64,000 nucleotides of DNA from Limnobacter litoralis. GTDB taxonomy: Bacteria > Pseudomonadota > Gammaproteobacteria > Burkholderiales > Burkholderiaceae_B. A model generated the notes under the pieces. It saw only the letters and a list, made by a program, of their open reading frames with translations, did no database searches and was not told where the DNA came from. This document shows, piece by piece, positions 53,082 to 55,870 of this stretch (positions are counted from its first letter, which is position 1; every line of letters starts with the position of its first letter). Position numbers and translations under genes: made by a program. The stretch spans positions 1-64,000 of the forward strand of contig NZ_BSOJ01000018.1 in NCBI RefSeq assembly GCF_030160455.1, read 5' to 3'.

Positions 53082-53485
53082 ATCCCAATTTGTTGACACC
53101 CCAAGAGACCATCAAATACCGCGATGTCTCAAGTGAACTGAGATGTCTGGTCTGTCAAAATCAGTCGATCGCGGATTCGCATGCCTCGCTGGCCATTGAT
53201 TTGAAAGAAGAAATTGCCGATCAGGTTCATGCAGGGAAAACCAAGGCCGAGATCAAATCGTACATGGTGGATCGTTACGGTGAATTCGTGCTGTACAAGC
53301 CCGCCTACACCGCCAACAACGCCGTTTTGTGGGCTGGTCCTTTTGTCGTGCTTGTGTTGGCTGCCATTTTGGTCCGAAAGACCATCCAGAAATCGAAGCA
53401 GGGAAGACGCACCGAGCAAAGCGCCGAGACCGAAGCGAAGTGGGCGGACGAGTTGTATGAAAAAGATCGGCAAGAGCAGGATTAG
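53078..53485 (+). CDS. ccmH: Cytochrome c maturation protein CcmH (CycL), no signal peptide
   Basis: A 135-residue CcmH. The redox motif LRCLVCQNQSIADSHA has C23 and C26, and a single helix (about 86-104) is followed by a basic tail. The usual N-terminal signal sequence is absent: the ATG at 53078 begins directly with MNPNLLTPQE and a TGA stop lies in frame just upstream (53063-53065). Export would then rely on N-out insertion through the C-terminal helix. It is the last ccm gene, before a repeat-rich gap. Confidence 0.9.
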   Translation: MNPNLLTPQETIKYRDVSSELRCLVCQNQSIADSHASLAIDLKEEIADQVHAGKTKAEIKSYMVDRYGEFVLYKPAYTANNAVLWAGPFVVLVLAAILVRKTIQKSKQGRRTEQSAETEAKWADELYEKDRQEQD

Positions 53486-53581
53486 TCGGACTGTCTCGCC
53501 TGTGGCCTTGGTGCTTGTCCCAAGCGCGCTGCTCTGTCTATCTCGCCCTTGAATTGCCCATTCAACTTGTAATTGCCTCTG

Positions 53582-53659
53582 GCCTTGGAAGCCCGAGCGA
53601 CAACTCGCCCCGCTAAAGCCGGGGCTCAGACAAGTCGCAGGTCGGGCATGTTCCAAGGC
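53582..53659 (+). repeat. Structured hairpin element, copy A
   Basis: The outer stem is GCCTTGGAA (53582-53590) with TTCCAAGGC (53651-53659). Next are GCCCGA (53591-53596) with TCGGGC (53642-53647) and GCGAC (53597-53601) with GTCGC (53634-53638), leaving 3-nt bulges on the 3' side. An inner stem pairs GCCCCG (53607-53612) with CGGGGC (53620-53625). Copy B is the same element inverted. Confidence 0.85.
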
Positions 53660-53781
53660 TGCGAGTCAACACAAGTGGGGCAATTCTTGAATCGGGCTTC
53701 GACAGACTGGGCAGTGCGCTTGGGGCAGTCCGAGGCTTCGGTCAAAGTTGGTGAACTGTACGATGAGGATCAAACTGAATT

Positions 53782-53869
53782 GGTCAGCAGGTCAGCAGGT
53801 CAGCAGGTCAGCAGGTCAGCAGGTCAGCAGGTCAGCAGGTCAGCAGGTCAGCAGGTCAGCAGGTCAACA
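53782..53869. repeat. Octamer tandem array (GGTCAGCA) x10, plus one variant
   Basis: Ten perfect GGTCAGCA units run from 53782 to 53861, followed by a variant GGTCAACA (53862-53869). The unit is not a multiple of three, so copy changes would shift any reading frame through it. There are no spacers, so it is not CRISPR. Confidence 0.97.
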
Positions 53870-53970
53870 GATTGGTTTGAATCCCTCTACCAGTGTTCCG
53901 CGTGGTCAGGCTTTGCAGGTGGGTGTGTCACGCAGCGCGATTCAGGGTTGCCCGGCTGCTCAGCCCCGCA

Positions 53971-54046
53971 GCTTTGGAACATGCTCGACCTGCGACATGT
54001 TTGAGTGGCTTGCAAAGCCACGAGTTGTCGCTCGGGCTTCCAAAGC
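53971..54046 (-). repeat. Structured hairpin element, copy B (inverted)
   Basis: The outer stem is GCTTTGGAA (53971-53979) with TTCCAAAGC (54038-54046); GCTCGA (53984ff) faces TCGGGC (54032-54037) with one G-T wobble; GCGAC (53992-53996) pairs with GTCGC (54027-54031); an inner stem pairs GTGGCTT (54005-54011) with AAGCCAC (54015-54021). Relative to copy A, stem changes are compensatory. Confidence 0.85.
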
Positions 54047-54076
54047 CAGGGTTCTGATCAGCGTCTTTGGGGCAAA

Positions 54077-54170
54077 CCAAGCGCAAGTGACATACCCACC
54101 TGCAACAGCCGACTCAGCAATAACCAACCGCAAGTGACATGCCCATCTGCAATAGCCGACCAAGCAACAG
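54077..54170. repeat. Degenerate 47-bp direct repeat
   Basis: Two adjacent copies (54077-54123 and 54124-54170) share CCAA, CGCAAGTGACAT, CCCA, CTGCAA, AGCCGAC and AGCAA in the same order. Short AGCAACAGCC pieces continue to about 54190. Confidence 0.8.
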
Positions 54171-54208
54171 CCGGCCCAGCAACAGCCAAGCCGGCCTGTC
54201 AAACTTCG

Positions 54209-55870
54209 TCACTTCAATGGCTTGTACCGAATCCGCTTGGGCTTGGCACCTTCCTCACCAAGTCGCTTGATTTTATCGGCTTCGTATTCCTGATAGTTAC
54301 CGTCAAAGAATACCCACTGTGAGTCGCCTTCACAGGCCAAAATGTGGGTTGCAATACGGTCCAGAAACCAGCGGTCGTGGCTGGTAACCAGTACAGATCC
54401 GGCGAATTCAAGCAAGGCGTCTTCCAGTGATCGCAGGGTTTCCACGTCAAGGTCGTTTGAAGGTTCGTCAAGCAGCAACACGTTGCCACCAGAAATCAGT
54501 GTTTTGGCCATGTGCAGCCGACCACGCTCTCCACCTGACAGGTTGCCAATCAGTTTCTGCTGGTCGCCGCCTTTGAAGTTGAAGCGACCCAGATAGGCGC
54601 GGGAGGACATTTCAAACTTGCCGACCGTCAAAATGTCGGCCCCATCAGAAACGCCTTCAAACACGGTTTTGTCGTTTGGCAAACTGTCGCGAGTCTGGTC
54701 GACCACGGCCATTCGGACGGTGCTACCGATCACGATTTCGCCAGAGTCTGGCTGCTCTTTGCCAGCGATCATTTTGAACAGCGTTGATTTACCTGCACCG
54801 TTGGGTCCAATGACGCCGACGATTGCACCGGGTGGAATTTTGAAACTCAAATTGTCAATCAGCAATCGATCGCCAAATGCCTTGCTGACATTCTTGAATT
54901 CAATGACCTCATTGCCCAGCCTTTCAGCCACGGGAATGAAAATTTCTTGTGTTTCATTTCGCTTCTGGTATTCGTGGCTGGACAGTTCTTCAAATCGCGC
55001 GATACGCGCTTTTGATTTCGCTTGGCGGCCCTTCGGGTTCTGACGCACCCACTCCAGTTCTTTCTTCAGCGCTTTCTGACGGGCAGATTCGGAGGCTTCT
55101 TCCTGCTTCAAGCGACCTTCTTTTTGCTCAAGCCATGAGCTGTAATTTCCTTTCCAGGGAATGCCATGCCCACGGTCCAGTTCAAGAATCCATTCAGCGG
55201 CATTGTCGAGGAAGTATCGGTCGTGAGTGACTGCGACCACTGTGCCCGGGAACTTGTGCAGGTATTGCTCCAGCCAATCAACGGACTCCGCATCCAGGTG
55301 GTTGGTGGGCTCATCCAGCAGCAGCATGTCGGGTTTGCTCATCAACAGGCGGCACAGCGCCACGCGCCGTTTTTCACCACCCGACAGGTTGCCGACTTTG
55401 GCGTCCCACGGTGGAAGGCGAAGCGAATCGGCGGCGATTTCCATCAAGTGCTCGACGTCATTTCCGGCTGCGGCAATGACCGCTTCCCACTTGGCCTGTT
55501 CTTCGGCCAGTTTGTCGAAGTCTGCGTCCGGCTCGGCGTAGGCTGCGTAAATCTCTTCAAGTTTTTGTTGGGCAACGGCGAGGTCGCCCAAACCTTCTTC
55601 CACGGCTTGCCTGACGGTGTGGTCTGGGTTCAATTCGGGCTCTTGGGACAGGTAGCCGATTGAGATGCCAGGCATTGGCTCGGCCTCGCCCTCGATGTCC
55701 TTGTCTACGCCTGCCATTATTTTTAGCAGGGTGGATTTGCCAGAGCCGTTCAGGCCCAACACACCAATTTTCGCCCCAGGGAAGAAGCTCAAAGAAATGT
55801 CTTTAAGGATTTGTCGCTTGGGGGGAACAATCTTGCCCACCCGATTCATGCTGTAAACGTATTGAGCCAT
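54209..55870 (-). CDS. ettA: ABC-F translational throttle protein EttA
   Basis: A 553-residue soluble ABC-F ATPase acting at the ribosomal E site according to energy status. Two ABC domains are visible: Walker A GLNGSGKST and GPNGAGKST, signatures LSGGEKRR and LSGGERGR, Walker B MLLLDEP and VLLLDEP. The linker between them contains the basic ESARQKALKKELEW region, with the arm in domain 1. Length equals E. coli EttA (555). No membrane partner. Confidence 0.96.
   Translation of the reverse strand: MAQYVYSMNRVGKIVPPKRQILKDISLSFFPGAKIGVLGLNGSGKSTLLKIMAGVDKDIEGEAEPMPGISIGYLSQEPELNPDHTVRQAVEEGLGDLAVAQQKLEEIYAAYAEPDADFDKLAEEQAKWEAVIAAAGNDVEHLMEIAADSLRLPPWDAKVGNLSGGEKRRVALCRLLMSKPDMLLLDEPTNHLDAESVDWLEQYLHKFPGTVVAVTHDRYFLDNAAEWILELDRGHGIPWKGNYSSWLEQKEGRLKQEEASESARQKALKKELEWVRQNPKGRQAKSKARIARFEELSSHEYQKRNETQEIFIPVAERLGNEVIEFKNVSKAFGDRLLIDNLSFKIPPGAIVGVIGPNGAGKSTLFKMIAGKEQPDSGEIVIGSTVRMAVVDQTRDSLPNDKTVFEGVSDGADILTVGKFEMSSRAYLGRFNFKGGDQQKLIGNLSGGERGRLHMAKTLISGGNVLLLDEPSNDLDVETLRSLEDALLEFAGSVLVTSHDRWFLDRIATHILACEGDSQWVFFDGNYQEYEADKIKRLGEEGAKPKRIRYKPLK

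Follow-up and report, generated by a model that had tools for sequence, protein, structure and literature searches.

Facing hairpins with a conserved tip between ccmH and an EttA-type gene of Limnobacter litoralis: a candidate mobile DNA element

The gap between two converging genes of Limnobacter litoralis is occupied by a repeated unit built from two long, inward-facing and non-identical hairpins. The unit recurs in facing pairs, its hairpin tip is conserved on species-specific pairing arms, it is present or absent at orthologous sites, and some of its relatives enclose cargo genes. We consider it to be, with a probability of roughly one half, a non-autonomous mobile DNA element with a conserved tip that a putative enzyme would read. 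A preliminary description had noticed the two hairpins and interpreted them as a small mobile or processed element under selection for structure; the observation was confirmed and the interpretation is partly supported. Positions below are those of the window, the whole stretch of 64,000 nucleotides that was analyzed.

Layout of the locus and copies in the L. litoralis genome

The unit comprises the whole of 53489-54195 and fills nearly all of the space between ccmH, which ends at 53485, and a minus-strand gene for an EttA-type ABC-F protein, which ends at 54209 (Table 1). Hairpins A and B, each nearly a perfect inverted copy of the other, fold as was initially proposed, with stems of 9, 6 and 5 bp, one-sided 3-nt bulges and an inner hairpin, and the DNA folding z-scores of -4.0 to -5.9 are well beyond those of shuffles. 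The compensating change from C-G to T-A is present in the outer stem, the inner stems of A and B have different sequences that are paired in both, and the octamer array lies between the copies as described. The extent assigned to the hairpins (53582-53659 and 53971-54046) holds for the core fold but not for the length, since the arms continue to pair outward to about 53516-53727 for A and 53913-54105 for B, giving two hairpins of ~210 and ~190 nt. The left outer arm, which is common to all nine units of the genome, base-pairs with 53701-53727. The 47-bp tandem repeats are located at 54075-54168, outside hairpin B, and most units have comparable tandem arrays on their outer sides; these arrays may have originated by slippage at the hairpins.

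Table 1. Parts of the unit, in window coordinates
Feature	Position	Strand	Remarks
Left outer arm, partial tandem repeat (CCAAGCGC..CTGTC..TTGCCC)	53489..53578		directly after the ccmH stop codon
Hairpin A	53579..53665	+	head AACTCG-[CCCCGCTAAAGCCGGGG]-CTCAGACA at 53602-53632
Inner arm of A	53666..53745		complement of the left outer arm
Octamer array GGTCAGCA	53782..53869		ten copies by exact match and one degenerate copy
Inner arm of B	53905..53964		complement of the right outer arm
Hairpin B, inverted homologue of A	53965..54049	-	head AACTCG-[TGGCTTTGCAAGCCA]-CTCAAACA at 53998-54026
Right outer arm, 47-bp tandem repeats (AAGCGCAAGTGACATGCCCACCTGCAATAGCCGACTCAGC)	54050..54195		

The proposal of a dispersed repeat family, for which further copies were needed, is borne out by searches of the L. 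litoralis genome, which returned nine A...B pairs spread over seven contigs, in every case A followed by inverted B, as well as one solo hairpin (contig C30) and one diverged pair (contig C17) that encloses an ORF for a 97-aa membrane protein. The units are about 430-610 bp long and contain from 0 to 12 copies of the octamer. With the array left out, the cores of the nine units are 88-94% identical, and their flanks are at chance identity (mean 43%). No terminal inverted repeats of the whole unit were evident in this genome, where the outer ends are tandem repeats. The same genome also has two minus-strand head hairpins, 311 bp apart, that belong to a different subfamily (G000 C2:25286-25621, L140).

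Comparison of the copies revealed seven base pairs altered on both sides, with 98% of the cells remaining paired versus about 45% or less in a control with slid partners; when the C17 pair was added, three pairs of the 5-bp stem were also altered on both sides. The structure is kept across these copies, which by itself is modest evidence because the rows are few and related. The earlier argument for selection on structure is upheld as to the structure-preserving changes, but covariation between A and B alone represents few events, and it is other genomes that provide the strong evidence.

Conservation and distribution of the hairpin tip

The exact 165-nt sequence was essentially absent from 60 relatives, and an exact search of genome contigs with a species-specific 23-mer yielded no match, as expected from arms that are species-specific. 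Covariance modeling, which had been suggested as a check, did find the structure elsewhere: a model of the A, B and C17 halves gave 12 matches in one relative (G015) and further matches in G002, G007 and two other genera. The sole part common to the aligned hairpins of relatives is the tip, AACTCGC-loop-GCTCAnACA, and the same tip is present in four genomes of the genus (that of L. litoralis included) and in two other genera. Across the order, AACTCGC-N(3-12)-GCTCAnACA was identified in 102 of 399 Burkholderiales genomes, compared with ~13 for the backward control, and reached 33 copies in a single genome (G556). Within a sample of the phylum, some other Gammaproteobacteria have many copies of the tip (37, 33, 32 and 26); outside Gammaproteobacteria, its counts in this sample are at or below control.

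A scan of named genomes used the pattern AACTCGCTNCGCTCARACA, for which arithmetic predicts ~15 chance matches in the whole collection. Among the matches listed are Marinobacter, Variovorax, Haemophilus, Rodentibacter, Stenotrophomonas, Luteimonas and Ralstonia, and also Lachnospiraceae, Bacteroidota, Fusobacterium, Patescibacteria and others. In 76 of 126 of these listed matches, arm pairing exceeds the 99th percentile for random positions, and the listed examples from Clostridium and Selenomonas are long, nearly perfect hairpins. Judged from sequence, the tip family likely extends beyond Proteobacteria, in a set that includes chance matches and metagenome bins.

Similarity searches of plasmids and phages returned one Variovorax record. 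In phages, sequence matches to the tip occur within a gene with repeated residues (39 viral loci), near P2-like head-completion genes (12) and near a Zot-like gene of filamentous phages (8); these loci include L453, L450 and L465.

The arms are unrelated between genomes, yet each pairs with its own partner, with a median score of 12.5 where swapped arms average 6.1, and 134 of 178 distinct hairpins score above the 95th percentile of swapped arms. A mismatch-tolerant search for the tip added almost no true hairpins, indicating that the tip is nearly invariant, an invariance that is partly ascertainment since the loci were gathered by exact tip.

Facing pairs, boundaries and cargo

Inward-facing (+-) arrangements account for 33 of 43 close neighboring heads, the remainder being -+ (4), ++ (2) and -- (4), and for 14 of 16 in the named genomes, among the matches listed. 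One genome (G1020, L234-L236) has head pairs that face outward, 350-520 bp apart, the reverse of nearly all others. Four genomes from a single Burkholderiales family (G337, G541, G622 and G418) have terminal inverted repeats (TCAAAACCGTCGGGGGTTGCCCGACAGCAAGTTAC) ~135 nt outside each head, and the units that they bound are 542-3618 bp long. No target-site duplication was visible at 12 units. At three loci, the orthologous site of a sister species has the same neighboring genes and no head; because the sites without the unit belong to different species, loss is indistinguishable from gain.

Several of the bounded units hold one to three unrelated genes. For example, L317 contains an AAA ATPase resembling OLD/AriA-type proteins, L318 a 513-aa protein of no family, and L136, L179 and L319 ORFs of 175-239 aa, while L139 carries an alcohol dehydrogenase, a putative short-chain dehydrogenase (read from sequence) and an HxlR regulator. 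In addition, a RelA/SpoT-domain protein that matches the phage-defense candidate PDC-S33 lies beside a head at L328, where the contig ends within the unit, and a KAP NTPase (PDC-S20) adjoins a head at L245, outside any fully bounded unit. Some cargo in this small set resembles anti-phage genes.

Alternative explanations and significance

The description of the hairpins as having no named counterpart stands: neither Rfam nor open-access literature text, searched by tip and arm sequence, yielded a match, and membership in an RNA family was rejected for want of an Rfam match. It is rather unlikely that the unit acts at the RNA level, as a two-way terminator or 3'-end stabilizer for converging genes that spread between intergenic regions by recombination. 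Its surroundings would suit such a role, with 46 of 88 clusters between convergent genes, 35 between tandem and 7 between divergent genes (raw counts from a rough gene caller), and in two sister species (G006 and G002; L063, L064) the ccmH-ettA gap is short and has an ordinary two-way terminator in place of the unit. However, no T tract follows the hairpins and a terminator scan was at about the level of shuffles, so that an intrinsic terminator was rejected; Rfam again offers no match, and cargo units with terminal repeats are left unexplained. The stem mismatches, in the top orientation, comprise 219 G-T and 246 A-C and thus show no G-T excess; since selection at the RNA level should favor G-T on the transcribed strand, they point to DNA and argue against selection on RNA, although a bias could be hidden if both orientations are transcribed. 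A processed RNA element, as had been considered initially, is disfavored on the same grounds. The ccmH-ettA gap of another relative (G015) contains a GST-like gene.

The preliminary description had also suggested a RAYT/transposase partner, and we regard it as quite improbable that a RAYT-type Y1 transposase, lost or unassembled in some carriers, moves the unit as a repeat of the REPIN/BIME or TIRtron-like kind. REP doublets are inverted pairs of extragenic hairpins, the REPIN plan (PMC3116915), and PMC3733652 describes TIRtrons as RAYT-like genes between long, sometimes self-complementary terminal repeats, with repeat families in, e.g., Stenotrophomonas maltophilia. Nevertheless, Y1_Tnp is absent from the complete-looking L. 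litoralis genome, 9 of 20 carrier genomes lack it as well, among them G556 with its 33 copies, and no head was found in any of 20 fetched regions around Y1_Tnp genes, for which reasons the partnership was rejected. Clustering of the proteins near heads revealed no common family outside phage groups, and no accompanying mobilizing enzyme was found for the element. At one locus (L232, G822 C1:1242300-1245400), a RAYT gene and an MGMT-like gene do lie between two inward-facing heads, but this RAYT is accompanied by its own GTAG repeats, and its proximity to the heads appears coincidental.

The likeness to REPINs and REP doublets lies in dispersed extragenic inverted hairpin doublets that are mostly downstream of genes (PMC3116915, PMC3733652). 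The units here differ in being about 430-610 bp rather than roughly 70 bp between ends, in lacking the GTAG or CGTC tag in A and B of all nine units, in having as their conserved part a hairpin tip that is common to different species, and in that RAYT is not required and genes can be carried. They share with TIRtrons, as the text of PMC3733652 presents them, long and partly self-complementary inverted repeats and the formation of repeat families, and differ from them in having no Y1 transposase beside the heads (20 regions); this separation is by text description, and partial overlap is possible.

It is comparably improbable that slippage and gene conversion spread these hairpins as passive palindromes, with a shared tip that reflects how stable GNA loops and tandem G-A mismatches are in DNA. 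The bottom-strand sequence of the tip, TGTnTGAGC-GNA-GCGAGTT, joins a GCGNAGC loop (GNA closed by G-C) to PyGAPu tandem G-A mismatches. Both GNA loops closed by G-C and tandem G-A pairs in a PyGAPu context are unusually stable in DNA, and the outer ends and center of the unit hold tandem arrays typical of slippage. However, stability requires neither the flanking TGTnT nor the order of facing pairs, and the clean terminal repeats with cargo would remain unexplained. Finally, we see it as highly improbable that the hairpins are attC-like recombination sites of an integron-type cassette system: although single genes, some of them defense-like, are bounded by long hairpins with imperfect, asymmetric pairing, much as structured hairpins bound single promoter-poor genes in integrons, A and B lack the attC core GTTRRRY/RYYYAAC (one chance match excepted), and the heads form inverted facing pairs, unlike the direct attC sites of integrons.

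MITEs and mobile insertion cassettes are likewise non-autonomous, with optional passenger genes and terminal inverted repeats (here seen in one family); the present element differs from them in having no target duplication, no related insertion sequence that could be found, and two internal hairpins with a conserved tip. In the best reading, the element resembles REPINs, MITEs and cassettes in style, yet fails tested defining features of the REPIN and of the MITE-type cassette.

As a non-autonomous mobile DNA element, the unit would use the bottom-strand tip as a conserved recognition signal. When the locus is single-stranded, e.g., during replication, each arm would fold, and a putative enzyme acting in trans would read both tips and mobilize the intervening DNA, whether or not this includes a passenger gene; the resulting copies would land mostly downstream of genes, where harm is least. 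We infer the single-stranded folding, the enzyme, the route and movement itself, and against them stand the lack of an accompanying enzyme, of a target-site duplication and of clean terminal repeats in L. litoralis, and the outward pairs of G1020.

More tentatively, and at less than even odds, the heads may belong to a widespread, undescribed hairpin-bounded cassette system, in which a putative enzyme would recognize the single-stranded tip in facing pairs and move the intervening segment. If so, such cassettes, distributed over many lineages of bacteria, would be often empty and would sometimes hold single genes, anti-phage candidates among them. A tip of ~19 bases that is nearly unchanged while the arms vary freely implies a shared reader. 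Its discovery would bring to light either a new mobilizing enzyme or a new signal based on DNA structure, and would offer a way to study how single genes, some of them anti-phage-like, move without a visible transposase.
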